This document shows positions 3,601 to 33,187 of a stretch of DNA of 64,000 nt, one piece after another. Where the stretch lies: positions 1-64,000 of the forward strand of contig JAHYJC010000024.1 of NCBI GenBank assembly GCA_019429275.1, given 5' to 3'. The notes below the pieces were generated by a model. It saw nothing but the letters and a program-made list of their open reading frames with translations, did not search any database and had not been told where the DNA came from. The translations under genes were made by a program, and so were the position numbers. Numbering within the stretch: the stretch's first letter is position 1; every line of letters begins with the position of its first letter. The stretch is from Lentimicrobium sp. (GTDB taxonomy: Bacteria; Bacteroidota; Bacteroidia; Bacteroidales; Lentimicrobiaceae).

Positions 3601-5158
3601 AATGGGACTGGTAAACAACAATCAGTCTTTCTTTACCAGTACAATATGGAATGGAAATGTAAGTACTGCCTGGGAATTATCAGTAAATTGGAGTCAAGGA
3701 GTTCCTGTTCAAGGTATGGATGTGATAATTCTCGATGTTAACAATAGTCCTGTCATCAGCTTGCATTCTGCTTGTGATAACTTAACCATTTCTCCTTCAG
3801 CTTCGCTTGAAATTTCCTCAACAGGCTCACTTACTGTTGGCGGAGATCTTGTCACCAATGACGGGCTAACCGTTCAGAGTGGTGGTTCATTGATCACCGA
3901 AGGTACCGTTACCGGCAATGCAACAGTAATCCGCGATATTGCCGGACTTAATCAGTATCACTTCCTCTCCTCGCCCATCACCAATGCAGCACTGGGTGAC
4001 GTTTTCCCGTCAGGTGATATTTATAACATTTACCTCCGCGAATACGATGAGCCTTCGGGCGACTGGGTAAATCTTACCATACCTGCCACACTCGATAATG
4101 GAAAGGGTTACAGTTTCTTTATGGATAATATTGCAGCCACCACCGCAACCTTTACCGGTGCGCTGAACAATACCAATGTTATACCTGCAGTGTCAAATCA
4201 AGGAAATTCCGGCAATTCAAATTATGACGGCTGGAACCTGCTGGGCAATCCTTTTGCTTCGGCAATCCAATGGGGTATGGGTGAATGGGTGCCCAACAAT
4301 GTAAACAATGAAGTTCATGTATGGAGCAATGGCGTTTACAAATCGTATGTTAATGGTGCAGGAACGCTTACCGATGGTATTATTCCTGCCCAGCAGGGTT
4401 TCTTTGTAAAAGCAACCACCTCAGAACTTCCGGTTTCGGTTACCATACCTACTGCAGCCAGATTGCACAGCAGTCAGGCATTCTACAAGAATTCCATTGC
4501 AAACCTGCTCAGGCTTGATGTATCGGGCAATGCAAATGAATATTCCGATGCTGCTTTTGTTCGTTTCCACGATGAAGCCAGCATAGAATTTGATGCTGCC
4601 TGGGATGCACACAAACTTGACAACGATGCCGCAGCCCCCATGCTTTACACCATGAACGGCGAAACCCGTTTTAGCATCAATGCCCTGAAATCGGTTTCAG
4701 AATCACCCGTTATTCCGGTTTATTTCAAAGCCGGAGCCAACGGAGAATATACCATCAATGCATCAGGAATGGAATCGTTTGACAATGGTGTCATCTACCT
4801 CACCGATAATGTTACCGGCCTGCGTCAGGACCTGAACCAGAATCCGGTTTATACCTTCAGTGCAACCACCGGCGACGATGTCAGCCGCTTTACGCTGAGT
4901 TTTGGCACCCTGGGTATCGAAGAACAATCTGGCCTGAATATCGGGGTTTATGCAGCAAACAGTGAAATCCGCCTGCAACTGCCCGAAGCCATGCGTGGAA
5001 CAGTCAACGTGACCAGCCTTTCGGGTCAGGTGCTGCTCAGCCGCAGTTTCGATGCCATTGGAGAATTAGCCATCCGCACACAGTTGCCCACAGGCATTTA
5101 CCTGGTAACCGTAATCACCGAAAAGGGCACAGCCACACGTAAAGTTTTTATCAATTAA
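644..5158 (+). CDS. Large multidomain T9SS-secreted surface protein
   Basis: A 1504-residue exported protein whose enzymatic role, if any, is not evident. An N-terminal signal peptide ends near GMGWGQ (about residue 30). Visible modules, in order, are a jelly-roll-like segment (about 35-195), a chitobiase-type C-terminal repeat (about 205-275, with ATIYYTTDGTNP), an OB-fold-like DUF5689-type segment (about 285-430), a starch-binding-like fold (about 475-560, VDIAGSFNNWG), two 125-residue repeats (about 575-830) that share AWIGYST and GTYYYASRFQ, and a lamin-tail-like segment (about 835-960, AWINEFHYDNDG). The last 75 or so residues, ending in GIYLVTVITEKGTATRKVFIN-type sequence, form a typical T9SS type A sorting domain. 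The architecture suggests a cell-surface adhesin or carbohydrate-binding protein. The ATG start is supported by the signal peptide directly after it. Upstream lie heptamer repeats rather than a gene. Confidence 0.85.
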   Translation: MKHLLQKTKNLSALLALTTLLLLPGMGWGQTEEIIYATGFESDEGFTASTTYNNTTVKYDGPDGQQWGTYYGTPSNTSPIAGAQSMQMRWYTAASSNIGYTFTNFELENVTNVSFKAKNTTGINVIVSYSTDGGASYAGDQTFILSTTAETYNYIVSETGEFPLVRIKFQIIYTTAPTVTSRLYIDDVTISGMTGGTPTAVAPTFSPAAGTYYTPQNVTLSTTTEGATIYYTTDGTNPDNTVTEYTAPIAVSSTTTIKAIAYAIDYDPSAIATAVYTFPTINEVANIAALRAITLPSTEVYKLTGEAVLTYKTANRNAKYIQDATGAILIDDNAGIITTSYNLYDGITGITGTLALYNSMLQFTPVTDPGAATSTGNTVTPVEVTLANLTTDYQGKLVKVLNTTISETGNFAASTNYTLTDGSKGTGVLRTQYSDLDYIGQPIPEIAQDLTGVVLQYATAMQLVPRSTGDFSTANIPWPVTFYVDMSNHSDFTTVDIAGSFNNWGNPVQNMMLVDNGIYSLTTEAIFNDGDVIQFKFRKDGSWDTAEGGDNRLYTVIAGTNEYFGVYDIMQPASINWANLQYPATGTIDANGNLDVYARVYMDGVTQPASGSANITAWIGYSTENSNPNTWTNWVPASFNVQVENNDEYKATLTGIPAGTYYYASRFQYLDLGYVYGGYNGGFWDGTNNVSGVLTVNEVQIDWANLQSPASGFTTVGGTFNVYAQVYEPGVTPGEGQGAGIQAWIGYSTSNTDPSTWTNWVSASHNPDVIGNNDEYVANIATGLAQGTYYYASRFQLDAYDFVYGGYNEGGGGFWDGTDNVSGVLTVNAPPMPNAWINEFHYDNDGVDVNEFVEVVVENASGVNLAELRVHLYNGNGGVVYGTSSINDYTEGVTLNGFTIYTLAISGIQNGSPDGLALSYFNILISGQFLSYEGTFEATGGPAIGVTSVDIGVSENGTGATTNSLQLGGAGTEYSDFFWQPEATNTMGLVNNNQSFFTSTIWNGNVSTAWELSVNWSQGVPVQGMDVIILDVNNSPVISLHSACDNLTISPSASLEISSTGSLTVGGDLVTNDGLTVQSGGSLITEGTVTGNATVIRDIAGLNQYHFLSSPITNAALGDVFPSGDIYNIYLREYDEPSGDWVNLTIPATLDNGKGYSFFMDNIAATTATFTGALNNTNVIPAVSNQGNSGNSNYDGWNLLGNPFASAIQWGMGEWVPNNVNNEVHVWSNGVYKSYVNGAGTLTDGIIPAQQGFFVKATTSELPVSVTIPTAARLHSSQAFYKNSIANLLRLDVSGNANEYSDAAFVRFHDEASIEFDAAWDAHKLDNDAAAPMLYTMNGETRFSINALKSVSESPVIPVYFKAGANGEYTINASGMESFDNGVIYLTDNVTGLRQDLNQNPVYTFSATTGDDVSRFTLSFGTLGIEEQSGLNIGVYAANSEIRLQLPEAMRGTVNVTSLSGQVLLSRSFDAIGELAIRTQLPTGIYLVTVITEKGTATRKVFIN
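2366..3129 (+). repeat. Two-copy internal protein repeat in the surface protein
   Basis: Two consecutive units (about 2366-2735 and 2744-3129) encode about 125 residues each. Both begin I-[ND]-WANLQ, contain AWIGYST and TWTNWV, and end GFWDGT-[ND]-NVSGVLTVN. They are diverged at the DNA level, so the duplication is old rather than recent. Confidence 0.85.
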
Positions 5159-5217
5159 TATCCTGTAATCCGGTCCCGGCTTCACCGCCGGGATCGTTTG
5201 CACAAAAAATAAAAAAC

Positions 5218-5448
5218 ATGAAAAAGAAAATTTTAGCATTTACCTTACTGTTTTTTCTGGCTTTGGCTCCATCGATTATGATATTTGCACAACCCAATCC
5301 GGGTTCAGGTTCGGGTGGTGGCGCTGTTGGAGGCGATCCCATCGCCGGAGGTACTGCTCCCATAGGCGGTGGCATGGCCATTCTGCTGGTGATGGGTTCC
5401 CTTTATGCAGGGAAGAAGGTCTACAATGCCAGGGTTAGTGAGGAATGA
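5218..5448 (+). CDS. Small glycine-rich membrane protein with PID-CTERM-like tail
   Basis: A 76-residue protein encoded 59 bp after the surface-protein gene on the same strand. It has a signal peptide (residues 1-25, ending FAQ), a Pro/Gly/Ser linker (NPGSGSGGG), and a second hydrophobic segment introduced by APIGGGMAILLVMGS and followed by the basic stretch AGKKVYNAR. A PIxGG motif, transmembrane helix and basic tail resemble the short PID-CTERM-type sorting or anchor proteins that are common in Bacteroidota. The function is unknown. Position suggests co-expression with the T9SS protein upstream. It could equally be a free-standing single-pass membrane peptide. Confidence 0.7.
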   Translation: MKKKILAFTLLFFLALAPSIMIFAQPNPGSGSGGGAVGGDPIAGGTAPIGGGMAILLVMGSLYAGKKVYNARVSEE

Positions 5449-5525
5449 ATAATGCCTGCCTCGTCAGAGTGGGCGATGACGAGGAATAATGAAGAACGAG
5501 GAATGAATAATGAATAATTGCTTGC

Positions 5526-5571
5526 CTCGTGAGCTTGTCTGCTTGTCCATACAAGCAGACAAGCTCACGAG
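5526..5571. repeat. Perfect 21-bp inverted repeat, 4-nt loop
   Basis: The left arm 5526-5546 (CTCGTGAGCTTGTCTGCTTGT) is the exact reverse complement of 5551-5571, separated by ccat. There is no T-run after it, so it is not a standard intrinsic terminator, although it lies 78 bp downstream of the small membrane-protein gene and could protect or end its transcript. Confidence 0.85.
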
Positions 5572-5629
5572 ACAAGCTATTTCTAATGCCTAAAGACTGA
5601 AATTAGTTTGAACGCGGGTGGTCTCGACT

Positions 5630-5706
5630 CCGCTCGACCACCGCTCGACCACCGCTCGACCACCGCTCGACCACCGCTCGACCACCGCTCGACCACCGCT
5701 CGACTA
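5630..5706. repeat. 11-bp tandem repeat (CCGCTCGACCA)x7
   Basis: Seven head-to-tail copies of CCGCTCGACCA, the last ending ACTA. Six of the seven copies are identical, so the array is young or homogenised. No ORF uses it. Confidence 0.9.
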
Positions 5707-5921
5707 AACCGCCGAAACGTATGGGCTATTTGCCCCACAACCGATTAAGAACAACGCTTTGCTTACAGACAGCCTATGGCATTTGTCAAATGGACTATAT
5801 CAAATAAATCAAAGAAGGACCGGAAAACGATTCTTTTTTTATAGCCACCAAGGCTCTAAATTCTGCTTTGCTAAGCGGAATTTAGCTTCGCTGAGCCTGC
5901 AGGCTCGAACACATCGCTGCC

Positions 5922-6001
5922 GCACGATTGTATCGTGTGGCTTCATTGTAAATTTAACGGTAATTATTATTTACCACGCGATACAATCGCGCAGGAGCAG
6001 A
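5922..6001. repeat. Palindromic dispersed element, copy 1
   Basis: Imperfect inverted repeat with arms 5922-5940 (GCACGATTGTATCGTGTGG) and 5974-5992 (CCACGCGATACAATCGCGC) around a 33-nt AT-rich loop, followed by GGAGCAGAG-type sequence. A near-identical copy lies at 6873-6952, and the right arm alone recurs near 6588 and 6747. Confidence 0.8.
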
Positions 6002-6003
6002 GC

Positions 6004-6093
6004 AATGACGAGGATAATTACAAATTATCCGAAACACGGCCTGATTTCTTTCTGAAATCGAAACTGTGGACGGAATTGCAAATTCCGCCCAAC
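6004..6093. repeat. About 90-bp direct repeat, copy 1
   Basis: Runs from AATGACGAGGATAATTAC to AATTCCGCCCAAC and is repeated almost exactly at 6617-6705. In both places it directly follows the CAATCGCGC right arm of the palindromic element, so the two form one larger composite unit. Confidence 0.8.
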
Positions 6094-6616
6094 TGGGGCA
6101 TGCTGCTCAATGGCCCGGCTAAGCGGAATTTATAATTCCGCTTTATATATTCCTGAATTTGCAATTCAGGATTCGTGTTATGGTTGTTAAATCTCTGTTA
6201 TATTATTTCAATCGTTGCTCAGAAATGTGCCTGCTTCAACTGTGGATGGAATTGCAACTTTCGCCCAGAGGGAGTGATTTTGACTCCCTTGCTCTCTGGC
6301 GGGGCAAGCTGCTCAGTCACCGATGTTAACTAAGATCACGGAGCCGGAACGATGGTGACTGAACGCCAGTGGCTGAGCAGTTTCCCCTGCCGGTGGCTGA
6401 GCGGAGTCGAAGCCACCGTAAAGGGTGCGCTGCTCAACCATTAATGTATTCTTGGATTTGTAATTCAAAGCCCTGACTGCCATCAACCAGGCTGCCCGCC
6501 ATGGGATGATTCGTATTACGGTTATTAAGTTTCAATTACAAAATTTCAATCTTTATTCAGGGCGCAAACTGAGAAATTATTTTTTAGCACGCGATGCAAT
6601 CGCGCGGGAGCAGATC

Positions 6617-6705
6617 AATGACGAGGATAATTACAAATTATCCGAAACACGGCCTGATTTCTTTCTGAAATCGAAACTGTGGACGGAATTGCAAATTCCG
6701 CCCAA
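6617..6705. repeat. About 90-bp direct repeat, copy 2
   Basis: Second copy of the unit at 6004-6093, again preceded by the palindrome right arm (CACGCGATGCAATCGCGC, about 6588-6605). The spacing between copies is 613 bp. Confidence 0.8.
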
Positions 6706-6872
6706 CGGGGCTTGATTTTCTGTCGTTGTATTTTTAGTAGCCATACCACGCGATACAATCGCGCGGGAGCAGAGAAAAACAAATAAATAAGGAAGATTCA
6801 GTTTTTGGTCTTTTTTTTGAATTGGCCACTATCCTGATAGCTATCTGGCCACTAAGGCACCCCATCGCTGCC

Positions 6873-6952
6873 GCACGATTGTATCGTGTGGCTTCATTGT
6901 AAATTTAACGGTAATTATTATTTACCACGCGATGCAATCGCGCGGGAGCAGA
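6873..6952. repeat. Palindromic dispersed element, copy 2
   Basis: Arms 6873-6891 and 6925-6943 match copy 1 at 5922-5992, including the whole loop (CTTCATTGTAAATTTAACGG and on). One base in the right arm differs (GATGCAATC instead of GATACAATC). Confidence 0.8.
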
Positions 6953-7373
6953 GAGACTCAAGCCATGGCCGGAGGGGTATTTAAAAGTTTTTTATCTTAC
7001 CTTTTCCTTGATGAAAAGGTAACCAAAAATCAAGGCTTCGTCTCGTCAGAAAAATAAGTTGGTGCATAAATGTAAGTTTCATGTCTGACGAGATGGCTAA
7101 ACCCAGGCGAACAATTTTTGTATGAAGAAATGAGCCTGCCTGCCTGCGGCTTGCAGGCAGGGTTGATAGATTCTCCCTTTTCTTGAAACCGATGTACAAA
7201 AATCTCCTGAGCACTGCCGAATAGTATCGGTTGCATTTCTTCTTTATTTTTTTGTTGCTTGTTTTTTTAACGCCATTTTTCCAAGGCCGATCCCGATGGC
7301 CGGGCTTAGGAGCGATTATTAACATTCAAAAATTAAAGGATTTCTTATCTCAAAAGCCGCCAAAGGTCAAGGA

Positions 7374-21537: not shown

Positions 21538-24510
21538 ATGTCGGCAAATATTTATTCTCTCATATCCCGAAAGTTCTATTTTGATGATACCGCTTTCATC
21601 AACCTGATGAAAAGGCGAATTTACAATGTTTTGCTGATTGCAAGCAACTACGATTCATTTGTGCTTGAAGGTGACGGCCGCATTGATGAGCAGATTTTCA
21701 ATGAATATGTTTCGTTGAGTTTAAGGTATCCTCCACAGTTTATACAGGTTCCGTCAGAGAAAGAGGCGCTGAAGGCCCTGAAAAATCAAAATATTGATCT
21801 GATCATTACCATGCTTGGGATGGGTAAAAGCGAGACTTTTGACTCTGCCAAGCGCATCAAGGCAAGTTATCCCAAAATTCCGATTGTTGTCCTGACCTCC
21901 TTTTCACGCGAAGTTTCCGTTACCCTGGCCAAAGAGGATCATGAAGCCATCGACTATGTGTTTAGCTGGCTGGGCAATGCCGATATACTGCTGGCCATCA
22001 TCAAACTGATTGAAGATAAGATGAATGCCGAGCATGATATTCTGGATATCGGCGTTATGGCCATTTTGCTTGTGGAAGACTCCAAACGTTTTTATTCAAG
22101 TTACCTGCCCAACATTTATAAACTCATCTTCAAGCAATCGAAGTCCTTTATGACCGAAGGACTGAATGAACACCAGATGATGTTGCGTATGCGTGGCAGG
22201 CCGAAGATTCTGCTGGCCACCAGCTATGAAGAGGCTATTATTTATTACGAAAAATATAAGGACAACTTTCTGGGAATTATCACCGATACCTCATACCCCA
22301 GAAACGGCGAGCAGGACAAGATGGCCGGTTTCAGGCTGGTTGAAAAGGTAAAACGCGACGATGAGTTTATGCCGATCCTGATGCAGTCGAGCGATTTATC
22401 AAACCAGGCGCTGGCCCGCGAAAAACGGGTTGGATTCATTTACAAACTTTCTAAAACACTGTTGAAAGAACTCCGGAATTTTGTAATGAATTATTTTGCC
22501 TTCGGCGATTTTGAATTTGTAGATCCTGAAACCCGGCAGGAAATTACCCGTGCCTCAGACCTGAAGTCGCTGCAGCAAAAAATCTTTGAAATCCCTGATG
22601 CCTCGCTTGAGTATCATGTTTACCGGAATCATATTTCTAAATGGCTGAATGCCAGGGCGCTGTTCCCGTTGGCTGAATTGTTCGGCGATTTAAGACCCGA
22701 TGATTTCAATGATCTGGATGAAATCAGGCGGTTTATTTTCGATGCCATTGCAACTTTCAGGCTCAACAAGGCGCGCGGCATCATTGCCGAGTTTAACCGT
22801 GAGAGTTTTGACGAGTACCTGAGTTTTACCAGAGTAGGGCAGGGCTCCATTGGTGGAAAAGCCCGAGGACTTGCGTTTCTTGATTCGCTCATCAAGCGCA
22901 ATCAGCTGCTCGATAAATGGCCGGGAGTGGTAGTTTCTATTCCACGAACCGTAGTGCTGGGAGCCGATATTTTTGATGAGTTTATGGAAGATAACAATCT
23001 TTACAAAATTGCACTTTCCGAAATCAGTGATGAAGAAATACTCGAGCATTTTGTGTCGGCCAGGCTTCCATTCCGGCTGCACGAAGATTTATACACCTTC
23101 ATCAGTGTGGTGAAGAAACCCATCGCCATCAGGTCATCGAGCCTTCTTGAAGATTCTTATTATCAGCCGTTTGCCGGAATTTATTCTACCTATATGGTGC
23201 CCAATTTTGTTAATGATGAGCGGCTTACCATCGAAAATATAAGCAATGCCATAAAGAGCGTGTATGCATCGGCTTTTTACCGCGATTCAAAATCTTATGT
23301 GGCTGCAACATCCAACATCATTGACGAGGAAAAAATGGCCATAGTGCTACAGGAGGTTACGGGTTCAAAATATGACGATCGTTTTTATCCCAGCTTGTCA
23401 GGCGTGGCACGATCCATTAATTTTTATCCTATAGGTCCTGAAAAGCCTGAAGATGGCATTGCCAATATAGCCCTGGGACTGGGTAAATATATTGTTGATG
23501 GCGGACTGACGCTAAGGTTTTCTCCGAAGTATCCAAAAAAGATTTTGCAGCTTTCGGTTCCTGAACTGGCACTGCGCGAAACGCAGAAGCATTTTTATGC
23601 ACTTGACCTCAGGCCGGGTTCATTCACACCTTCCACCGACGACAGCTCAAACCTGCTAAGGCTGGGCATTGCCGACGCTGAACCCGATGGATCGCTCAGG
23701 AATGTTGTATCTACTTTCGATTATGAAACCAACATGCTGCGCGAAGGTATGTTTAGTAAAGGAAAACGTATCGTCACTTTTTCGAATGTGCTGAATCACA
23801 ATGTTTTTCCATTGGCTGATATATTGGCAACCCTGCTTGAAACCGGGCAGAAGGAGATGAGTAAACCCATTGAAATTGAATTTGCTGTGGAACTCAGCAG
23901 GCAGAGTGGAAATCCTTCTCTGTTCAATGTGCTTCAGATCAGGCCAATCGTAGATAACAGGGAAGCCATTGAGGCACAACTTGAGGATCTGGATGAAAAG
24001 GATACCCTCATTTATGCGCACCATGCGCTGGGCAATGGCATCATCAGCGATGTTTTTGATATTGTTTATGTGAGGCCCGAATCTTTCAATCCGGCAGAAA
24101 ATATGCATACCGCCGAAAGGGTGGGGGCGATCAATGAAAAATTTCTTGCCCAAAAGCGGAATTATGTGCTGGTAGGCCCAGGCCGCTGGGGAAGCAGCGA
24201 TCCATGGCTAGGAATTCCGGTCAAATGGCCGCAGATTTCTGCTGCAAGGGTCATTGTTGAATCGGGGCTGGAACATTACCGCATCGATCCCAGCCAGGGA
24301 ACCCATTTCTTTCAAAACCTTACCTCTTTCAGTGTCGGTTATTTCACCCTCAATCCATTTATAAAAGATGGTTTTTACGATCTTGATTTCCTGTCAAAGG
24401 AAAAAGCTTTTTATGAAGATGAAGTAATCAGGCATGTAAGGTTTGAACAGCCGCTGGTGATTATGATCGACGGTAAGAAAAACCTTGGTGTGATTATGAA
24501 ACCCGGCTAA
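21538..24510 (+). CDS. Dual receiver-like and PEP/pyruvate-binding (PPDK_N) protein
   Basis: A 990-residue cytoplasmic protein. Residues 28-160 form a receiver-like fold in which the phospho-acceptor Asp position reads Met (IDLIITMLGMG, M92). Residues 175-315 form a second receiver that keeps the full active site: E180 and D181 (LLVEDS), D250 (IITDTSYP), S284 (MQSSD) and K303 (IYKLS). A family-specific linker (about 330-430) leads into a PPDK_N ATP-grasp domain from about 436 (GSIGGKARGLAFLDS; then PIAIRSSSLLEDSYYQPFAG at 528-547) to about 850. The last 120 residues hold GPGRWGSSDPWLGIP. The swivelling His domain and the PEP/pyruvate TIM barrel of real PEP synthase or PPDK are absent, so it cannot be a complete enzyme of that kind. 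Similar proteins are often labelled PEP synthase in Bacteroidota. A signal-controlled nucleotide-dependent phosphotransfer role is inferred. Confidence 0.82.
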   Translation: MSANIYSLISRKFYFDDTAFINLMKRRIYNVLLIASNYDSFVLEGDGRIDEQIFNEYVSLSLRYPPQFIQVPSEKEALKALKNQNIDLIITMLGMGKSETFDSAKRIKASYPKIPIVVLTSFSREVSVTLAKEDHEAIDYVFSWLGNADILLAIIKLIEDKMNAEHDILDIGVMAILLVEDSKRFYSSYLPNIYKLIFKQSKSFMTEGLNEHQMMLRMRGRPKILLATSYEEAIIYYEKYKDNFLGIITDTSYPRNGEQDKMAGFRLVEKVKRDDEFMPILMQSSDLSNQALAREKRVGFIYKLSKTLLKELRNFVMNYFAFGDFEFVDPETRQEITRASDLKSLQQKIFEIPDASLEYHVYRNHISKWLNARALFPLAELFGDLRPDDFNDLDEIRRFIFDAIATFRLNKARGIIAEFNRESFDEYLSFTRVGQGSIGGKARGLAFLDSLIKRNQLLDKWPGVVVSIPRTVVLGADIFDEFMEDNNLYKIALSEISDEEILEHFVSARLPFRLHEDLYTFISVVKKPIAIRSSSLLEDSYYQPFAGIYSTYMVPNFVNDERLTIENISNAIKSVYASAFYRDSKSYVAATSNIIDEEKMAIVLQEVTGSKYDDRFYPSLSGVARSINFYPIGPEKPEDGIANIALGLGKYIVDGGLTLRFSPKYPKKILQLSVPELALRETQKHFYALDLRPGSFTPSTDDSSNLLRLGIADAEPDGSLRNVVSTFDYETNMLREGMFSKGKRIVTFSNVLNHNVFPLADILATLLETGQKEMSKPIEIEFAVELSRQSGNPSLFNVLQIRPIVDNREAIEAQLEDLDEKDTLIYAHHALGNGIISDVFDIVYVRPESFNPAENMHTAERVGAINEKFLAQKRNYVLVGPGRWGSSDPWLGIPVKWPQISAARVIVESGLEHYRIDPSQGTHFFQNLTSFSVGYFTLNPFIKDGFYDLDFLSKEKAFYEDEVIRHVRFEQPLVIMIDGKKNLGVIMKPG

Positions 24511-24568: not shown

Positions 24569-25378
24569 CTAATTTCCATCCACCAGGTAAGCCCTGAGTT
24601 CCTCTGTCTGAGGGTTTTTAAAAAGTTCCTCCGGGTCTCCCTGTTCTATAATTTCACCGTCAATCATAAAAATGGCATGATCGGCCAGGCGGATGGCCTG
24701 CCTCAAAACATGGGTAACCAGTATAATGGTATAGTGTTTTTTGATGTCTTTAAACAGGTTTTCTATGATCTTGCTCGAAATCGGATCAAGCGCCGAAGTG
24801 GGTTCGTCGGCAAGTATGATGCTGGGTTTAACGGCAAGTCCGCGTGCCAGGCAAAGACGCTGTTGCTGCCCGATAGAAAGGCTGGTAGCCGGAGCATTCA
24901 GGCGGTTTTTAACCTCCTCCCAAAGCCCCACCTCGCGCAGGTGTTTCTCAACACTGAAATTAATGAGTTTACGGTCGCGCACTCCTTTGAGCTTCAGCCC
25001 ATAGGACACATTCCGGTAAATGGAAACCGGCAGCGGATAAGGCCTCTGCGACAGCAATCCCATCTTTTGCCTGATGGAAGGTATGTTGGTGGTGGTATTC
25101 AGTATGTCATCTTTTTCAATGAAGATACTTCCTGAAACTTTCAATTCCCTGTAAAGGTCGGTGAGTTTGTTCATGCACTTGAGCAGCGTGGTTTTTCCAC
25201 AACCTGAAGGGCCAAGCAAAACAGTAATTTTATTGCGTGGAATTTCAAGATTGATATTTTTGAGAATATGATGATCACCGGCAAAGACATTCAGGTCCTG
25301 AATCTTCACAATCTGTGAAGAATGTAGGGCTGCTTTAGTCGAAACTTCTGAAGTTTGGGATGCTGCTGCATTGTTCAT
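24569..25378 (-). CDS. pstB: Phosphate ABC transporter ATP-binding protein
   Basis: A 269-residue ABC ATPase powering high-affinity phosphate import. Walker A is GPSGCGKTTLLKCMNKL, the signature is SLSIGQQQRLCLARGLA, Walker B is IILADEPTSALDP, and the switch His is in ILVTHVLRQA. It ends the porin-pstSCAB gene run, starting 10 bp after pstA. The N-terminal 20 residues (Ala/Ser-rich) are longer than in E. coli PstB. A phoU gene, often next in such operons, is not present. Confidence 0.9.
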   Translation of the reverse strand: MNNAAASQTSEVSTKAALHSSQIVKIQDLNVFAGDHHILKNINLEIPRNKITVLLGPSGCGKTTLLKCMNKLTDLYRELKVSGSIFIEKDDILNTTTNIPSIRQKMGLLSQRPYPLPVSIYRNVSYGLKLKGVRDRKLINFSVEKHLREVGLWEEVKNRLNAPATSLSIGQQQRLCLARGLAVKPSIILADEPTSALDPISSKIIENLFKDIKKHYTIILVTHVLRQAIRLADHAIFMIDGEIIEQGDPEELFKNPQTEELRAYLVDGN

Positions 25379-25388
25379 ACTTACTTGC

Positions 25389-26243
25389 TTACTTTAAATT
25401 AGACCTTGAATATCTTTTCGAAATAATCCGTGCGCTCAGGCTTATGGCCAGAATAATAATGGTCAGGATGACTGCCGAGGCAAAAGCCCTCTCCCTGACT
25501 TCAGGTATGGGTGAACCCAGCTGAAAAAAGATGGCCAGAGGCAGTGTAGCTGCCGGCTCATCGAGATTTATCGGAATGTTGTCGGTGTATCCGGCTGTAA
25601 AAAGTACCGAAGCTGCATCGCCAATGCCTCTTCCAAACGACAAAAGAATAGCGGTAATAAATCCTGAGAATCCCTGCCTTAACATGACCCTGAAAGCTGT
25701 TTCAGTGCGGGTGGATCCCAGGGCAAGCGAAGCTTCGTGCAGCCCCCGGGGAATGGTACTCAGCACTTCATCAAAGGTACGCACCATTATCGGTGAAATG
25801 AGTAAAGCAACAGTGATGATACCCGCCAGAAGCGAGGCATTCATTCCGAGAAAAAGCATAAGCGTAAATCCAAAAGCACCATAAACGATGGAAGGGATAC
25901 CCCAGAGCGCATCGAGAAAATATCGGATGGTATTTTGTGTGCGCCGGTAGCGAACCAGCTGAACATTGATGTAAAGGGCTGCCGGCATCCCTATAAAAAT
26001 CGCAATCAGTGTGGCTCCGACTGCGATGTAAAGTGAGCCCATAATGGCATTGAGCACTCCACCTTCGCCGCCGTAATAATATCCACCTTGAGGGGTTTTC
26101 AGGATCATATCCAGATTCAGGGCATTGAAGCCTTTTATAAAAATGACCAGAATGATGAACGCCAGTACAGTAATCAGAGAGTAGGTCATGAAGGCCGACA
26201 GAAACACAAAAAATTTTTCTTCAAGAATTTTTATCCGTCTCAT
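25389..26243 (-). CDS. pstA: Phosphate ABC transporter permease PstA
   Basis: A 284-residue inner-membrane permease with about six transmembrane helices. The binding-protein-dependent permease EAA-type loop is HEASLALGSTRTETAFRVML, and the following SFGRGIGDAASVLFTAGYTD is typical of PstA. It overlaps pstC by 4 bp. Confidence 0.9.
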   Translation of the reverse strand: MRRIKILEEKFFVFLSAFMTYSLITVLAFIILVIFIKGFNALNLDMILKTPQGGYYYGGEGGVLNAIMGSLYIAVGATLIAIFIGMPAALYINVQLVRYRRTQNTIRYFLDALWGIPSIVYGAFGFTLMLFLGMNASLLAGIITVALLISPIMVRTFDEVLSTIPRGLHEASLALGSTRTETAFRVMLRQGFSGFITAILLSFGRGIGDAASVLFTAGYTDNIPINLDEPAATLPLAIFFQLGSPIPEVRERAFASAVILTIIILAISLSARIISKRYSRSNLK

Positions 26244-27127
26244 TGCCTTTTGGTTTTATGAATCAGATACCTGAATATCATGTTGAAAATGAGAATAATA
26301 ACCAACAGCAGAAAAGCTGCAAACATAAGTGCGGCATCGTACATGGGTATTGAGAGCATTTCGCCGTAATTGTTGGCTATAAGCGCAGGTAGTGGATAGG
26401 CGGCATCCAGGGGATTGATTGAAACCTTTACTACATTTCCAACCACCATCATTACTGCAATGGTTTCACCGAAAGCTTTGGCAATGCCCAACCCGTAAGC
26501 TGAGATAATTCCCGGAAAGTTTCCCCTGATGACCACATGTTTTACCGATTCCCAGCGAGTAGCACCAAGTGAAAGCGAAGCTTCGCGCAGCCCGACCGGC
26601 ACTGTGTTGAAAATCTCAATCAACATATTCAGGATGTAGGGAATACACATCACTGCCAATACTATGCCACCCGATAATACTGAATAACCTGATGATGTTG
26701 TATTAAATACCGGTGCCACGTATTTCGAAACAAACGGAACAATGATCAAAATGCCCCAGACACCATAGATGACCGATGGTAGCCCGGCAAGTACATCAAT
26801 AACCGGATGCATGACTTTGATCAATTGCTTAGACGAGAACTGTGTTAGATAAATGGCTGCCAGCAGGCAAACCGGCAGGGTGAACAGAAAACTTAGCACA
26901 GTAACATAGAGTGAGCCTGCGATAAATGGCCAGAACCCGAATTCACCTTTTGATGGAGCCCACTGCGATGAAAAAATCAGGCTAAAAAATGATTGTTGGT
27001 CAAATAATGGAGCGGCTTTCAAATATAAGCCTGTTCCTATAATCAGCGGCAACGACAAAATGGTGATCAGTGAGGTGATCATCCAAAATCCCGTGATTTT
27101 GTCAAAGATTTTTCGCCTTAATTGCAT
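26240..27127 (-). CDS. pstC: Phosphate ABC transporter permease PstC
   Basis: A 295-residue inner-membrane permease. The EAA loop is REASLSLGATRWESVKHVVI, followed by GLGIAKAFGETIAVMMVVGN, the PstC hallmark. About six transmembrane helices are visible. It starts 33 bp after pstS and overlaps pstA by 4 bp. Confidence 0.9.
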   Translation of the reverse strand: MQLRRKIFDKITGFWMITSLITILSLPLIIGTGLYLKAAPLFDQQSFFSLIFSSQWAPSKGEFGFWPFIAGSLYVTVLSFLFTLPVCLLAAIYLTQFSSKQLIKVMHPVIDVLAGLPSVIYGVWGILIIVPFVSKYVAPVFNTTSSGYSVLSGGIVLAVMCIPYILNMLIEIFNTVPVGLREASLSLGATRWESVKHVVIRGNFPGIISAYGLGIAKAFGETIAVMMVVGNVVKVSINPLDAAYPLPALIANNYGEMLSIPMYDAALMFAAFLLLVIILIFNMIFRYLIHKTKRQ

Positions 27128-27160: not shown

Positions 27161-28099
27161 TTACCTGATTTTTTCAAGGTATTCCTCAATTTTTGCCTGA
27201 TCAATGGGTACATAACCGGCTTCCATCACGAATCTCTGGCCCTCGGTAAGGCACCAGCGTAAAAAATCATGGGTAGCTTTTTTAACCGGCTTGCCTTTCG
27301 AAACAAAATACAGTTCGCGTGCAGGAGGTGAAGGATAAATTCCATCAGCTATCGCCTTCAGCACACCATCAAAGCTTTCGTAAAAATCCTCTTCATAATC
27401 AATCGTGCCGTTGCCGTTGATGTCGATGGGAATGACTTCCATGCCCGGGCGCTTTTTACCGGTAACTATATCGTAAGCGTAAATGGTGTTGTTGAACCCT
27501 ATGCCCAACCTGTCTTTGGCAACGGCTTCGGCCAATCCCGGATCACCATAAATACCGATTCCAAGCAGGTTTTCCTGCTTGCCACCAAGGTATTTTGCCC
27601 AGGTTTCTGCCGCTCCGCAGGCATCTGAACGGGTATAAACCATAATTTTTTCTATTGAAGGAATTCTCAGTAGATTTCCCCAGTCTGGAGTTTTATTTTC
27701 TATAAAAATCCGGGTGAAATCTTCTTTTTTAAGTCCCTGTTTTTTTATTGTCTCCAGAAATGGATTCTGATCGCTGATGGTTGGAACCACGGCATCGATG
27801 GTAAGTCCTACCCACCAAACTCCCTGGTCTTTCTCTTCCTGGGCAATTTCTCTTGAAAACATGCCCAGATCAACTGCACCTGCCAGCGCATCGGCCATGC
27901 CTTTGCCGGCACCGCCGCCCGATATGTTGAACCTGACTTCAGGATTCACTTTTTTATACTCTTCCGACCATTTTACGGCCAGCGGGTAAAGTGCAAAAGC
28001 TCCCGAAAGGCTAATGGTCTGATCTTTTTTCTTCTGCGATGCGCAGGAGGTAAATAGCGTGAGTGCAGCCATGCAAATCAATAATCCTGTCTTTTTCAT
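27161..28099 (-). CDS. pstS: Phosphate-binding lipoprotein PstS
   Basis: A 312-residue periplasmic phosphate-binding protein of the PBP-like family, anchored as a lipoprotein (lipobox LFTSC, Cys at residue 19). Family stretches are LSGAFALYPLAVKWSEEY, FNISGGGAGKGMADALAGAV with the usual substrate-binding Ser/Gly loop, and SDACGAAETWAKYLGG. It passes phosphate to PstCAB. It starts 5 bp after the porin gene, so the two are co-transcribed. Confidence 0.9.
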   Translation of the reverse strand: MKKTGLLICMAALTLFTSCASQKKKDQTISLSGAFALYPLAVKWSEEYKKVNPEVRFNISGGGAGKGMADALAGAVDLGMFSREIAQEEKDQGVWWVGLTIDAVVPTISDQNPFLETIKKQGLKKEDFTRIFIENKTPDWGNLLRIPSIEKIMVYTRSDACGAAETWAKYLGGKQENLLGIGIYGDPGLAEAVAKDRLGIGFNNTIYAYDIVTGKKRPGMEVIPIDINGNGTIDYEEDFYESFDGVLKAIADGIYPSPPARELYFVSKGKPVKKATHDFLRWCLTEGQRFVMEAGYVPIDQAKIEEYLEKIR

Positions 28100-28104
28100 T
28101 GGAT

Positions 28105-29388
28105 TTATTTTTCTGGTGAATCTTTTTGACTGAATAAATTGGGAGTTAAGGTCAGCTGCAGATAGAAAAACTGCGCAAATTTATCCTGACTTACATTTTG
28201 TATAATTTTCAAAGATTCTGTTGGGAGAAAAAAGCAATAACCGGCTTCAAAGTTCCCCCAACTACTGAACCTGAAGTTCAGGATGAGGTCGTTCTCAAAT
28301 CCAAGCTTTTTGTCATCAGGGGTTTGAGGATTAGTTTGGGCAAGGGCAAAGTAATGGGCGGTGTTTTTAAGGCTGATTTTTTTTGAAAACCTGTAATCCA
28401 GCCACAGGTAATAATCTGCGACTCCTCCGCTCACTGTCTGTTTAGCGTAGTTGGTGAAATAATCCATTGCTCCAAAATAGAGGTGACGGTTTCCGTAAAG
28501 CGGATCGAACAGATGGTCCGTATTCTGGGTTCCGGGTGTTTTTTTGTTTCCGCTCAGGTATCCTGTTCCAGCTCCGGTGGTAAAAGTCCCAAAGTTGTAA
28601 CTTGCAACGGCATCAAACAGCAAAGCACTGAGGTTGTAGCCTTTCTGGCTTTTTCCGTATTGATAGTACAAATTGCTCCAGGCACTGAAATTGTTTTCTT
28701 TGTATTCCCCGAAAAGTCCGGTGGTATGCCTGAAATTCATTGGATTGGTGGTGTCGGTTTTGGTGATTCCGGCAGAAATGTGCAACAGCGAGAGTTTGAG
28801 TTGATTGTTGAATTTGTAGTTCAACCAGAGGAAATTCAGCGATTTGATGCGTGATGATGGATAGGGATTTTCGGCAAGGGTATCGGTGAGAGTGTTCCAT
28901 GAAGCACCGAGGTGAAGGTTCCATTTGTCGGGACTCAATTTAAAAACCAGGGCGTCATAACTTTTTCCATTCTGATTCCAGTTGCGGTTGCCAAGCAGTC
29001 GTTTGCTGTCGTAAACCAGCTGCTGACGCCCTGCCGAAATCCAGGCAGATTTGCCAAGTTTTACTTCAGCATAAGCTTCCAGAAGATCAAGAGAAGGATT
29101 ATCGCCAACCCCCGATGTGCTCATTTTTGACTGGTCGCCCCAAATCCTGACATCCTGGGGTGTAAATTTCAGTTTCAGGTTGGCGGTTTCATATCCAAAG
29201 GTCATCCGGGTCCTCTGAGATATGAACATCGCCGGGTTTGAACCTTCAGTGCTGAGTTTTTGATATCCATCGCGGATCTCAAAACGATTGCGGAATTGGG
29301 CATCGACACTAAACTGGGCAAAAAGTGCCGGAGACCATAAAACAAAGAAAGTGATGGAGGCTGAGATAAATTTTCTGTAATATTTCAT
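28105..29388 (-). CDS. Outer-membrane porin, alginate-export-like family
   Basis: A 427-residue beta-barrel protein with a signal peptide ending near ALFAQ (residue 25). The N-terminal pattern FSVDAQFRNRFEIRDGYQKL, with SQRTRMTFGYETANLKLKFT further on, matches Bacteroidota alginate-export-type or phosphate-selective porins, and the rest alternates aromatic and polar residues like a barrel, finishing with an aromatic strand (FAQFFYLQLTLTPNLF). Its place as the first gene of the pst run suggests it lets phosphate through the outer membrane. Real specificity cannot be read from sequence. Confidence 0.78.
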   Translation of the reverse strand: MKYYRKFISASITFFVLWSPALFAQFSVDAQFRNRFEIRDGYQKLSTEGSNPAMFISQRTRMTFGYETANLKLKFTPQDVRIWGDQSKMSTSGVGDNPSLDLLEAYAEVKLGKSAWISAGRQQLVYDSKRLLGNRNWNQNGKSYDALVFKLSPDKWNLHLGASWNTLTDTLAENPYPSSRIKSLNFLWLNYKFNNQLKLSLLHISAGITKTDTTNPMNFRHTTGLFGEYKENNFSAWSNLYYQYGKSQKGYNLSALLFDAVASYNFGTFTTGAGTGYLSGNKKTPGTQNTDHLFDPLYGNRHLYFGAMDYFTNYAKQTVSGGVADYYLWLDYRFSKKISLKNTAHYFALAQTNPQTPDDKKLGFENDLILNFRFSSWGNFEAGYCFFLPTESLKIIQNVSQDKFAQFFYLQLTLTPNLFSQKDSPEK

Positions 29389-29449
29389 TCCGGGAAGGGG
29401 ATTTTGACATTAGCAAAAATATGCCTGTCAGACTTACGGGAAAACAGTT

Positions 29450-29504
29450 TTTAAACGTAAGGTTAAAATACGTTTAAAGGCTTATGGGTACGTTTAAAAA
29501 CGTA
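29450..29504. promoter_or_regulatory. Cluster of TACGTTT heptamers with a 7-2-7 palindrome
   Basis: Four copies of the heptamer TACGTTT or its complement lie upstream of the porin-pst genes: AAACGTA at 29453-29459, TACGTTT at 29469-29475, TACGTTT at 29489-29495 and AAACGTA at 29498-29504. The last two form a perfect inverted pair with a 2-bp spacer (TACGTTT-AA-AAACGTA), the 7-2-7 arrangement used by NarL-family response regulators. The two direct copies are exactly 20 bp apart. A NarL-family regulator is encoded immediately upstream. Confidence 0.65.
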
Positions 29505-29514
29505 GTGCTTTCAA

Positions 29515-30156
29515 TCAAACCTCAACTATGCCATTTCTGATGGCAAACATTACCATACCTGCGGTATTTTTTGAATCGGTTTTCAGAAGAAGATTTTCAC
29601 GGTGTTTATCAACCGTGCGTTTGCTGATGCGGAGCAGATCGGCTATCTCCTGATTTGAAAGGCCCTGGCATATGCGGTAAAGGATTTCAATCTCTCTATC
29701 CGAAAGTTCACCGGGTTTTGCAGGTTTAACCTTTTTGCTGATATTGCGTAAAATGCTGCTCAGAATTTCGGGAGAAAAATAGTTGTGTCCTGCCGCTACA
29801 TTTCTGATGCACTCTTCAACATCCTGAATGCCTGAGTTTTTAAGCATAAAACCTTTGGCTCCGGCATTAATCATTCGGGTATAATAGTCCTCGTCGGCAA
29901 ACATGGAAAGAGCAATGATTTTCAAATCGGGTTGCAAAGCCAAAGCCCTTCGGGTGGTTTCAATTCCGTCTATGCCAGGCATGCTGATGTCCATAAATAT
30001 CAGTCCGGGCTTAGGATTGTCCAGTATTTTCAGGAACTCTTCGCCATCTGAAGCCTCCACAACCTGTGAAACAAAGGGCATTGAATTTAGCAACAGCTTC
30101 AGACCTTCTCTGAAAAGCTTGTGGTCATCGACAAGGAAAATGGTTAATGCCTGCAT
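29515..30156 (-). CDS. NarL/LuxR-family response regulator
   Basis: A 213-residue two-component regulator. The receiver domain (about 4-122) has the acidic pair in FLVDDHKLFREGLKLLL, phospho-acceptor Asp in LIFMDISMPGIDGIE (residue 56), and the Lys in GAKGFMLKNS. The LuxR-type helix-turn-helix lies at about 150-210 (LSDREIEILYRICQGLSNQE, then ISKRTVDKHRENLL). The partner histidine kinase gene is 47 bp upstream. The stop codon is only 11 bp from the heptamer cluster that precedes the porin-pst genes, which makes pst a likely target. Confidence 0.92.
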   Translation of the reverse strand: MQALTIFLVDDHKLFREGLKLLLNSMPFVSQVVEASDGEEFLKILDNPKPGLIFMDISMPGIDGIETTRRALALQPDLKIIALSMFADEDYYTRMINAGAKGFMLKNSGIQDVEECIRNVAAGHNYFSPEILSSILRNISKKVKPAKPGELSDREIEILYRICQGLSNQEIADLLRISKRTVDKHRENLLLKTDSKNTAGMVMFAIRNGIVEV

Positions 30157-30203
30157 TTTTCAAATGTTAATGGTGTTTCGCAATTAAAAAAACCTACATA
30201 TTG

Positions 30204-31154
30204 TTAATTTTTTTCAATCACCACATTTACCCTCACCCCTTCATTGGGCATGGTGAAAATGTCGATGCTCCCGTTCAGTGATTTCACCCTCGATTGAATA
30301 TTGGAGAAACCCATCCCTTCGCTTGTAGTTTCAAGAATGCCCTTGTCGAATCCAATACCATCATCAAGGTAATCGAGTTTGAGTGAGTCCTTGTCGTCGA
30401 GGAGAGAGATAAATATATTTTTGGCATTGGAGTGCTTCAATGAGTTTGAAATAAGCTCACAGATTACCCGGTAAAGCAGCACTTCGGTATTGTATGAGTA
30501 GCGCTGATCACCGAGGTTTGAATCGAAATTAATGCTCAAAGATACAGTAGGAGGTAATCTTGAAATAAAGGATTTTACAGCTTTTTTCAGACCAAAATTG
30601 TTAAGAACGTGAGGGCTGAGTTTGTTTGAAATTTCTTTGAGTGAAGTAATGGATTCATTAATCAGTTTCTCAGCATTTTCCAGAACTTTATTTCCGTTAA
30701 GGGATTGTTCCTGGCTCCGGCTGCCCGAAATTGCCATTTTTACTGATGAAAGCAAGGGTCCCAGTCCATCATGCAGTTCCTTTGAAAAGTTCAGGCGTTC
30801 TTTTTCTTCGGTTCTGACAATGGCCGAAAGTACCCTCGATTCATTCTCTTTCCTGAGTTCATCCATGCGTTTCTGAATGTTGAAGATTCGCTTGATGAAG
30901 ATGAGACTTCCCAGCATGAGTATAGAAATTACAACACCGGTCCAGGTGCTCAACATTCCGGTTATCAGCCTGCTCTGGCTATTCGAAAAAAGTTGAAAAT
31001 ACTCAAATACCCTGCGGATGGCCATCAGCAAAAATCCTATAGAAATAATCCACCAGGCAATGTTGGTTTTTGTCCGGCGCGTAAGTGAAAGCGCAATAAT
31101 GGCTGCCACAAACTGCAATACAATAGAAATAATAAGAGCTACTTTTACCGTCAT
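30204..31154 (-). CDS. NarX/DesK-type sensor histidine kinase
   Basis: A 316-residue membrane histidine kinase with about three transmembrane helices in the first 95 residues (IISIVLQFVAAIIALSL; WWIISIGFLLMAIRRVF; GVVISILMLGSLIFI) and no large periplasmic sensor. A coiled-coil linker leads to a HisKA_3 dimerisation domain with the phospho-acceptor His in SKELHDGLGPLLSSVKMAI. The HATPase domain has the N box near RVICELISNSLKHSNAKNIF and the G box DDGIGFDKG, then SEGMGFSNIQSRV. The short extracytoplasmic part suggests it senses membrane state or works with another membrane protein, perhaps the Pst transporter. This is inferred only. Confidence 0.9.
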   Translation of the reverse strand: MTVKVALIISIVLQFVAAIIALSLTRRTKTNIAWWIISIGFLLMAIRRVFEYFQLFSNSQSRLITGMLSTWTGVVISILMLGSLIFIKRIFNIQKRMDELRKENESRVLSAIVRTEEKERLNFSKELHDGLGPLLSSVKMAISGSRSQEQSLNGNKVLENAEKLINESITSLKEISNKLSPHVLNNFGLKKAVKSFISRLPPTVSLSINFDSNLGDQRYSYNTEVLLYRVICELISNSLKHSNAKNIFISLLDDKDSLKLDYLDDGIGFDKGILETTSEGMGFSNIQSRVKSLNGSIDIFTMPNEGVRVNVVIEKN

Positions 31155-31321: not shown

Positions 31322-33187
31322 TTATCCCTGTTTCTGCATGGCTTTAGGCCCAATCATGTTTTTTGGATCAAGCACTTCGTCGAGTTGTTGTTTGGTCATC
31401 AGTTTCTGCTCCAGCACAAGATCATAAACACTGCGGTTGCCCTCTAGTGCTTCTTTGGCCAGTTTGTTTGATGCCTCATAGCCTATTACCGGATTCAGTG
31501 CGGTTACCAATCCAATACTGTTATAAACCATTTCGCGGCAGCGATCTTCGTTGGCTGTAATTCCTTTTATACATCTGTGGTTGAGTGTGTTCATACCGTT
31601 TTTCAGCATTTCTACTGATTCGAAAAGGCTGTAAACAATAATCGGCTCCATAACGTTTAGTTCAAGTTGTCCTGCTTCAGCGGCAAGCGTTACAGTAAGA
31701 TCATTGCCAATAACTTTGAAGGCAATCTGGTTCACCACTTCGGGTATAACAGGATTCACTTTTCCGGGCATGATGGTGCTTCCGGGCTGCATAGGAGGCA
31801 GATTGATTTCATTTAATCCGGCTCGTGGGCCTGATGACAACAGCCTGAGATCGTTTGAAATTTTTGAAAGTTTGACCGCCAGTCGCTTAACCGCCGATGA
31901 ATACATGATGAAGGCTCCGGTATCCTGAGTGGCTTCTACCAGGTTGGTAGCCAGCACAATAGGTGTGCCTGTGATTTCGCGTAGGTGTTTAATCACGATA
32001 CCACTATATGCAGGGTCAGCATTAATTCCTGTGCCAATGGCAGTACCACCCATATTGACCTCCAGAAAAAGCTCTACATTCTGGTTCAGCCTGGCAATCT
32101 CTTCTTCAAGCATTACAGCATAGGCTTCAAATGCTTGCCCCAGGGTCATAGGAACGGCATCCTGCAGCTGTGTGCGGCCCATTTTAATTACATGGGCAAA
32201 TTCTACTGCTTTTTGTTTGAACGAGGCAATCAGATCAATCAGCACTTCCACCAGCTTTTCGTTGCTGCGGATCAGGGCAATTTTTATGGCTGTGGGATAG
32301 GCATCGTTGGTCGATTGCGATAGGTTTACGTGGTTGTTTGGATGGCAAAATTCATATTGCCCGCGCTCATGGCCCAGGATTTCAAGAGCCCGGTTGGCAA
32401 TGACTTCATTTGCATTCATGTTGGTGGAGGTTCCGGCGCCTCCCTGAATCATATCTACCACAAAGTGGAAAGTGTATTTGCCATTAATAATTTCGTTGCT
32501 TGCCCTGACAATGGCATCGGCGAGTGATTTGCTCAGCAATCCCAGATCGTAATTTGCTTTTGCCGCCGCCAGCTTTACCATGGCCAGCGATTCCGCAAAA
32601 ACAGGAAAGAAATTGAGCTGAACCCCTGAAATGTTAAAGTTTTCCAGGGCACGCAGTGTTTGAATGCCATAGTAATATTCGTAGGGCACCTCCCTGTAGC
32701 CGAGCAGATCATGCTCGGTGCGGGTGCGGCCCGATTCATATTGTGCGGCAGAACTAATCATGCGTGCATTGGCCTGGCGCATACGGCGCGAAATTACCTT
32801 CGAAATATTTGAAAAAATCTTTAGCGCTGTGGGGCCATTCTGCTCAAAGAAATCTTTACGCAGCAATAGTGCCGTGGTTTTATGTTTTGCTCTTGCGCTG
32901 GTGCTGTGCGGCGATTCCTCTGTCAGAGATCCTTCGCCCAGAAAATCGAACCGGCTGAAATAACTCAATTTGGTTTCGGCACCCAGTGCAGATTTTTTAA
33001 AAAGCTCAACCTCGCCTTCGTAAATTATAAAAACAGCTTGGCGGGGACCACTTTCCTGAAAAAGAAATTCACCTGCATTAAAATTTCGCTTCTCAACCGA
33101 AGCCACTACTTTCTCTATTTCTTGGGCAGTTAGGCCTTTGAAGAGTTCAATTTCTGTAATAAAACGGTTTAAGTTTTTGATTTCCAT
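31322..33187 (-). CDS. aspA: Aspartate ammonia-lyase with N-terminal cyclic-nucleotide-binding-like domain
   Basis: A 621-residue fusion. Residues 1-145 resemble a cyclic-nucleotide-binding domain (NAGEFLFQESGPRQAVFIIY, then GEVELFKK). The usual Arg of the phosphate-binding cassette is not evident (FLGEGSLTEESPHSTSARA), so binding of cAMP is doubtful. Residues from about 155 (RTEHDLLGYREVPYEYYYGI) form a complete aspartase/fumarase-family lyase, with a substrate loop GSTIMPGKVNPVIPEV and SQSTNDAYPTAIKIAL typical of aspartases. The enzyme interconverts aspartate with fumarate and ammonia. Standard aspartases are about 470 residues, which agrees with the C-terminal part. No helix-turn-helix is present, so the extra domain is probably an allosteric or structural module. 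Confidence 0.88.
   Translation of the reverse strand: MEIKNLNRFITEIELFKGLTAQEIEKVVASVEKRNFNAGEFLFQESGPRQAVFIIYEGEVELFKKSALGAETKLSYFSRFDFLGEGSLTEESPHSTSARAKHKTTALLLRKDFFEQNGPTALKIFSNISKVISRRMRQANARMISSAAQYESGRTRTEHDLLGYREVPYEYYYGIQTLRALENFNISGVQLNFFPVFAESLAMVKLAAAKANYDLGLLSKSLADAIVRASNEIINGKYTFHFVVDMIQGGAGTSTNMNANEVIANRALEILGHERGQYEFCHPNNHVNLSQSTNDAYPTAIKIALIRSNEKLVEVLIDLIASFKQKAVEFAHVIKMGRTQLQDAVPMTLGQAFEAYAVMLEEEIARLNQNVELFLEVNMGGTAIGTGINADPAYSGIVIKHLREITGTPIVLATNLVEATQDTGAFIMYSSAVKRLAVKLSKISNDLRLLSSGPRAGLNEINLPPMQPGSTIMPGKVNPVIPEVVNQIAFKVIGNDLTVTLAAEAGQLELNVMEPIIVYSLFESVEMLKNGMNTLNHRCIKGITANEDRCREMVYNSIGLVTALNPVIGYEASNKLAKEALEGNRSVYDLVLEQKLMTKQQLDEVLDPKNMIGPKAMQKQG

Follow-up and report, generated by a model that had tools for sequence, protein, structure and literature searches.

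A NarL-type two-component system and a three-site promoter as probable controls of a Pst-like importer, most likely for sulfate, in Lentimicrobium

The 64,000-nucleotide stretch analysed here (hereafter the window; Lentimicrobium sp., assembly GCA_019429275.1, contig JAHYJC010000024.1, positions 1 to 64,000) carries a NarL-type two-component system upstream of an operon for a porin and a PstSCAB-like importer. The reading we favour, and consider likely, is that this system, when sulfur is scarce, switches on sulfate uptake through the porin and the importer. Comparison with related genomes gives good support to NarL-type control of the operon; sulfate as the ligand, a sulfur signal, activation and binding by the regulator are what we infer from the same kind of evidence.

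All genes of the original prediction were found on the minus strand in the shared orientation it described, in the order kinase, regulator, a 126-bp gap (29389–29514), porin, PstS-like protein, PstC, PstA and PstB. The kinase (30204–31154, 316 residues) has HisKA_3 and HATPase_c domains (PF07730 and PF02518), and the NarL/FixJ-type regulator (29515–30156, 213 residues) has a receiver and a GerE helix-turn-helix (HTH) domain (Pfam PF00072 and PF00196), all above cut-off. The outer-membrane porin (28105–29388, 427 residues) belongs to the Alginate_exp family PF13372 and is followed by a PstS-like substrate-binding lipoprotein, probably sulfate-binding (27161–28099, 312 residues), the PstC-type (26240–27127) and PstA-type (25389–26243) permeases and the PstB-type ATPase (24569–25378).

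The gap between the regulator and porin genes holds the perfect inverted heptamer pair TACGTTT-AA-AAACGTA at 29489–29504, with no mismatch, together with the further heptamers that had been predicted. TACGTTT occurs there four times in all, at 29453–29459 (−), 29469–29475 (+), 29489–29495 (+) and 29498–29504 (−), out of six copies in the whole window; the expected number in 126 bp is 0.011, and a naive Poisson estimate gives P(≥4) of about 7 × 10−10, a guide only, the motif having been picked post hoc. The single heptamers are halves of degenerate 7-2-7 sites at 29469–29484 and 29444–29459, which the original prediction had missed.

The putative −7 box TATTTTTG (29414–29421, minus strand) is of the type TAnnTTTG, which we take to be the Bacteroidota −7 consensus, and the putative −33 region ACTGTTTT (29441–29448, minus strand) is similar in most genus relatives. 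Counted upstream from the −7 box, the sites begin at 83 bp (site 1, the perfect dyad), 63 bp (site 2, 29469–29484, two mismatches to TACGYTTNNAARCGTA) and 38 bp (site 3, 29444–29459, 7-2-7-like with one good half and three mismatches); site 3 overlaps the −33 region. On the assumption that the −7 box is placed as usual, site 3 would be centred near −41, an activator position. Because it abuts the −33 region at this distance, activation is likelier than repression, and we infer that the regulator more likely activates the operon. In PMC4549865, E. coli NarL sites are placed at −40 to −49 in napF and −38 to −47 in yeaR, both promoters that NarL activates.

Conservation provides the main evidence for this control. 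Of 119 genomes, 53 have a PstS-like gene, which scores above 300 bits in 49 (the window's own genome included), and the named relatives of the transporter are mostly Bacteroidales assemblies, one of them Lentimicrobium sp. Within the genus, the regulator adjoins the operon in 11 of the 16 relatives having a PstS-like gene, and so does the kinase, except in L034, where the contig ends; in G011 the pair and the operon lie at or near the ends of two short contigs, and the linked pair is missing in G003, G007, G008 and G009. In 13 of 13 full regulator–porin gaps (the window, 11 genus relatives and L044 of another family; 12 listed by script and L039 read from the sequence), the single TAnnTTTG is preceded, at exactly 38 bp, by the start of a TACG half-site, and a dyad with at most two mismatches stands 83/84 or 63/64 bp before the −7 box in 12 of them. 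The box also stays with the operon when the surroundings change: in L033 (G010) a gene-sized insertion (4217–7070) moves the regulator 2.8 kb away from the porin, which keeps the box, and in L045 (G007), whose operon has neither porin nor pair, we read the box as kept at the same spacing to TAATATTG.

A matrix built from 21 genus sites was used to score the 250-bp stretch preceding the operon at 99 of 117 loci (L044–L080 and L150–L229), after 13 had been dropped as contigs already counted and five removed by filters (weak binding-protein match or less than 120 bp upstream). Three of the 25 loci with the pair were excluded for PstS identity above 70%, leaving 22, and three further loci were kept apart from both groups: L196 and L199, each scoring 13.8, have a convergent pair downstream, and L168 has a second unit scoring 6.8 and a CysP promoter scoring 20.9. 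Among the held-out pair loci (PstS identity below 70%), 20 of 22 score at least 8, with a median of about 15, compared with 11 of 71 loci without the pair on the fetched stretch (median 0), among which some near-identical contigs remain (L204/L221 and L218/L219), and with 3.6% of 495 random 250-bp windows. The difference between pair and pairless loci is significant (Mann–Whitney p = 3 × 10−9, with kinship ignored). In a wider set, kinase and regulator stand upstream of the importer in 30 of 80 named loci (8 of the 30 being contigs already counted), including a Chlorobiota assembly and the culturable Carboxylicivirga linearis and Anaerophaga thermohalophila, which both have a CysP-type gene as well. 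The spaced architecture exceeded shuffles in 22 of 30 regions, in a scan that let the −7 box vary ([TAC]AnnTTTG plus one variant) and took the best arrangement per region alike for observed and single-base-shuffled sequences.

The number of such sites is unremarkable; their location is special. The 16-bp pattern with at most three mismatches matches the window 6 times where 2.55 matches are expected, a value of 6 being reached by 4 of 100 shuffles, and three of the six lie in the regulator–porin gap. The exact palindrome has a single copy, in this gap, in the window's own genome (4.19 Mb, 108 contigs, 96% complete), where sites with at most two mismatches show no genome-wide enrichment (16 versus 38 for the reversed pattern). 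Five of the 15 other places with such sites in this genome were looked at; three of the four fetched sit inside open reading frames (ORFs), the fourth (contig C103) lies where no ORF is clear, in what we read as a repetitive gene, and a window site at 62652, upstream of an 815-residue gene, lacks the promoter spacing. Across 41 genomes the exact dyad TACGYTTNNAARCGTA occurs at 8 places and the reversed control pattern at 11, yet 6 of the 8 stand before a porin–pst operon. A check for autoregulation found no box upstream of the kinase gene, where the best matrix score is −7.4.

Conservation of the heptamers with the same gene order, the check by which the original prediction could have failed, and their co-occurrence with the pair thus strongly support the predicted NarL-type control of the porin–transporter operon, and it is the regulator of this pair that would bind at the 7-2-7 sites.

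The substrate appears to differ from the one originally assumed. Two loci have the operon flanked by sulfate-assimilation genes, all above NCBIfam cut-offs: cysK, cysH and cysD in L050, and cysD and cysH in L058. In L226, cysK and an Rrf2 gene precede a porin-pstSCAB-cysH-cysD-cysN array, and L228 and L229 have cysD and cysN near the importer; in 5 of 49 genomes (G023, G047, G081, G091 and G108) the binding-protein gene has cysD at most about 5 kb away. Presence of cysD also accompanies the transporter family, cysD being found in 48 of the 49 genomes that carry the family and in 39 of the 70 that lack it (Fisher p = 3.6 × 10−8, with kinship ignored and the counts made by hand, G024, G030, G069 and G116 of the 53 matched genomes being moved to those without because of weak identity). 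The window's own genome has cysDN and cysH; since SulP is absent from it, its sulfate transport candidates are the Pst-like importer and a CysP-like permease.

The same box stands before CysP-type permease genes in 5 of 5 tested pair-linked loci, with matrix scores of 16.3 (L093), 19.7 (L094), 23.8 (L095), 20.9 (L168) and 16.3 (L205). In L093, L094, L095 and L168 a −7-like box has sites at distances of 38 and 63/64 bp, and the L093 promoter has all three. In 6 of 6 pair-linked permeases (these five and L164), the aspartates of the two GANDVANA motifs are replaced by Gly and Asn, respectively, and the own-genome permease L147 has the same replacements; substitutions of this kind are described for the B. 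subtilis sulfate permease CysP in PMC5840216. CysP (NF053884) is the best and only NCBIfam match in L093, L094, L095 and L147, the CysP-type permeases that the scan covered.

The binding pocket has changed as well. The phosphate ligands of E. coli PstS, which we take to be Thr10, Ser38, Asp56, Arg135, Ser139 and Thr141, correspond to L, A, S, R, C and A in 11 of 11 sequences, so that Arg135 is the only listed side-chain ligand kept in all 11. As the relative of known structure, PDB entry 4gd5, also lacks Asp56, the loss of this residue is undiagnostic, and the telling losses are those of Ser38, Ser139 and Thr141, replaced by Ala, Cys and Ala in 11 of 11, where 4gd5 keeps Ser, Ser and Thr. The Thr10 column varies between Leu and Phe in two alignments. 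From these features, the binding protein probably takes sulfate, and the substrate of the importer is most likely sulfate rather than phosphate.

The PstS-like protein falls below the phosphate cut-offs (85 versus 207 bits for TIGR02136 and 57 versus 205 bits for TIGR00975), as does PstB (308 versus 343 bits for TIGR00972). The PhoB box that had been named as the alternative was checked: the window contains no match with three or fewer mismatches to what we take to be the E. coli Pho box consensus, from which a diverged Bacteroidota box may differ. The operon's regulator is NarL-type, not OmpR-type, and four OmpR-type HTH proteins are found elsewhere in the genome. The window operon includes no phoU, the PhoU family appears in the genome only in a 567-residue ORF on contig C38, and tblastn of E. 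coli PhoU against 154 loci, run without a positive control, gave no match. No second pst importer was found in the own genome, no TTAAC-type 11-bp repeats in the upstream regions of pst examined in relatives, and no phosphate-regulon genes were noticed beside the operon in the ORF lists of the loci. A phosphate regulon received no support from the phoU, second pst or Pho box searches.

Phosphate has other candidate importers in this genome, because two of its three PiT loci keep the first GANDVANA aspartate (L146, and L031 in an offset alignment), the third being CysP-like by signature. Upstream of the L031 PiT gene on contig C38 there is an 11-bp direct repeat, TTAACATTAACTTAACATTG (2099–2125), which, judged by PhoP/PhoB boxes, is possibly of PhoB type. 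The L146 permease (contig C31, 1450–3204) has a C-terminus (residues 468–581) weakly matching sigma-70/LuxR-type HTH models and may be a transporter fused to a DNA-binding-like domain.

The original prediction had taken the operon to import phosphate and its control to have been rewired from PhoB/PhoR to a NarL-type system. The sulfur-gene neighbours, the boxed CysP-type promoters and the altered pocket point to sulfate instead; phosphate as the substrate is therefore unsupported, and there has probably been no rewiring of phosphate control.

Several observations weigh against control of sulfate uptake by this pair. The closest relative, L032 (86% PstS identity), has degenerate dyads only, with four mismatches, and in G007, a genus relative that keeps the box, no orthologous pair was found in an 89%-complete assembly. 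Upstream of pstS, the score stays under 8 in two of the 22 pair loci, L057 and L212, with L057 reaching 9.0 before the porin. The box is present at the 11 of 71 loci without a linked pair, of which L049 and L060 belong to genomes that hold a pair elsewhere (G090 and G039). The spaced architecture is missing from 8 of 30 regions, in six of these because no −7 box was recognised. Some orthologues of the regulator beside other genes, those for Hdr-like iron–sulfur (FeS) proteins included, have a weak box or none (L096 −8.1, L105 0.2, L098 7.0 and L104 6.9), and the orthologues beside the Hdr-like FeS clusters have weak boxes of 0.6–10.1 (L098, L100 and L104 at 6.9–10.1), so not every orthologue belongs to the circuit. 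The cys genes adjoin only a minority of family loci, and G050 has the transporter but no cysD. In the own genome the cysH, cysDN and CysP-like promoters are without the box in the matrix scan, as is that of the L146 PiT gene; the porin–pst operon alone is consequently the predicted target there. The CysP matches of L093, L094, L095 and L147 are below cut-off (206.8–232.5 versus 400 bits), and two transporter subunits pass phosphate equivalogs, PstC with 247 bits against a TIGR02138 cut-off of 196 and PstA with 199 bits against a TIGR00974 cut-off of 193. Finally, L153, close to the genus (77% PstS identity), has a divergent Rrf2 gene before porin–pst, no pair on the contig, and a dyad, TAAGTTTTTATACTTA, scoring 15.3, so another regulator may use such a site.

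These points bear on four other explanations. That the same NarL-type system and box control a phosphate importer, moved from PhoB/PhoR, we regard as quite unlikely: the two permeases pass phosphate cut-offs, phosphate families are the best matches of PstS and PstB, and relatives of the binding protein in the PDB bear phosphate-binding names, but sulfate-assimilation neighbours, boxed CysP-type permeases, lost hydroxyl ligands, the lack of a Pho box within three mismatches in the window, a PhoU confined to the ORF on another contig and the other PiT-type transporters of the genome all speak against it. Another oxyanion sensed by the pair, such as thiosulfate, molybdate/tungstate or selenate, is unlikely. 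A ligand cannot be read directly from the sequence, such anions are transported by permeases of related fold, and the invariant pocket cysteine, C161, is unusual, whereas the genes beside the importer, cysD, cysN and cysH, are those of sulfate activation and reduction, and no gene for molybdate or tungstate was noticed among the ORFs listed, though no search was dedicated to them.

A real and conserved box used by another regulator, for instance of Rrf2 type, with the pair as a bystander, is very unlikely, although Rrf2 genes occur in 17 of 80 loci and L153, and L045 with its box and no orthologous pair found, fit it; the box tracks the pair across families (20 of 22 versus 11 of 71) and also stands before CysP, and the 7-2-7 geometry is that of NarL-type dimers in PMC4549865. 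L153 could be a case of regulator swap. A functionless chance cluster of heptamers would fit the only mild enrichment in the window and exact dyads no commoner across genomes than the reversed pattern, but it is refuted by conservation, namely the position of six of the eight exact dyads before the operon, the constant spacing in all 13 gaps and the held-out test, and we consider it extremely improbable.

In the favoured mechanism, in which the pair switches on sulfate uptake, the membrane kinase would respond to low sulfate or low cell sulfur and then phosphorylate the regulator, whose dimers would bind the three 7-2-7 sites between the regulator and porin genes. With the nearest site abutting the −33 region, the regulator would activate a Bacteroidota-type promoter, and activation would raise the porin and a PstSCAB-type ATP-binding cassette (ABC) importer for sulfate or a close relative, e.g., thiosulfate. 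We read the kinase as having three hydrophobic segments near its N-terminus and lacking a periplasmic sensor domain; His128, Gln14, Trp34 and Trp71 are conserved without exception in 11 of 11 sequences. The kinase may sense within the membrane or through a partner.

The Pst importer is the signalling partner of PhoR, and by analogy the Pst-like importer would be the obvious partner of the kinase where the genes are together. In L093, L094 and L095, however, the fetched stretch has the pair and a CysP-type gene but nothing Pst-like, so the signal cannot come from the importer alone in every case. A tentative extension is a sulfate counterpart of the Pho system in Bacteroidota and a Chlorobiota relative, in which the kinase would read sulfate through importer activity and the three-site promoter would drive porin, importer and CysP-type permeases. 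If so, this would be a two-component system dedicated to sulfate and assembled from phosphate-system parts.

Some neighbouring genes deserve mention. Upstream of the kinase, the window encodes an aspartase/fumarase-type lyase with an N-terminal cyclic-nucleotide-binding domain (31322–33187, minus strand), and a 621-residue protein of equal length and similar start precedes the kinase–regulator pair in L110 (59–1924). On the other side of the operon, a receiver domain is fused to a PPDK_N domain (21538–24510, plus strand), and an ORF resembling this protein is likewise convergent to pstB in L045. In L094, L098, L100 and L104, orthologues of the pair have Hdr-like FeS/CCG protein clusters and an FAD protein as neighbours.

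Control of sulfate uptake is known through one-component regulators, e.g., CysB and CymR. Among the open-access matches listed, judged by titles and the starts of abstracts, neither a two-component system nor a Pst-like importer for sulfate is described in Bacteroidota; the parts are known, and within those matches their combination, a NarL-type pair, a three-site promoter and a Pst-family sulfate importer, is apparently undescribed. If the reading is true, the NarL-type pair and its defined promoter would be a new control layer for sulfate uptake. Annotations assign this gene family to phosphate uptake, and if the substrate is sulfate, the phosphate and sulfur models of many Bacteroidota err alike. 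The regulator, its site and its set of targets are directly testable, in a group with poorly known sulfur control.

The system shares with NarX/NarQ–NarL/NarP and UhpB/UhpA-type systems a HisKA_3 kinase, a receiver–GerE regulator and 7-2-7 inverted heptamers, and with NarL promoters, as PMC4549865 presents them, a site in an activator position near the promoter. It differs in its heptamer, TACGYTT, in its Bacteroidota promoter and anion-uptake target, and in a kinase without an evident periplasmic sensor domain. Like PstSCAB with PhoB/PhoR, it has the importer protein families, their gene order and a regulator pair tied to uptake of a nutrient anion; unlike PhoB/PhoR, it has a NarL-type regulator, no matched Pho box, lost pocket hydroxyls and sulfur-gene neighbours. 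Its most likely function is that of CysPUWA (SulT), PiT-type CysP and SulP, and CysP-type permeases of relatives have the same box; the importer, however, is of the Pst family rather than SulT, and its control would be two-component, not through CysB or CymR. In other lineages the transporter has Rrf2 genes beside it, which recalls CymR/Rrf2 control of cysteine metabolism, but none stands beside the window operon, whose regulator has another DNA-binding fold.

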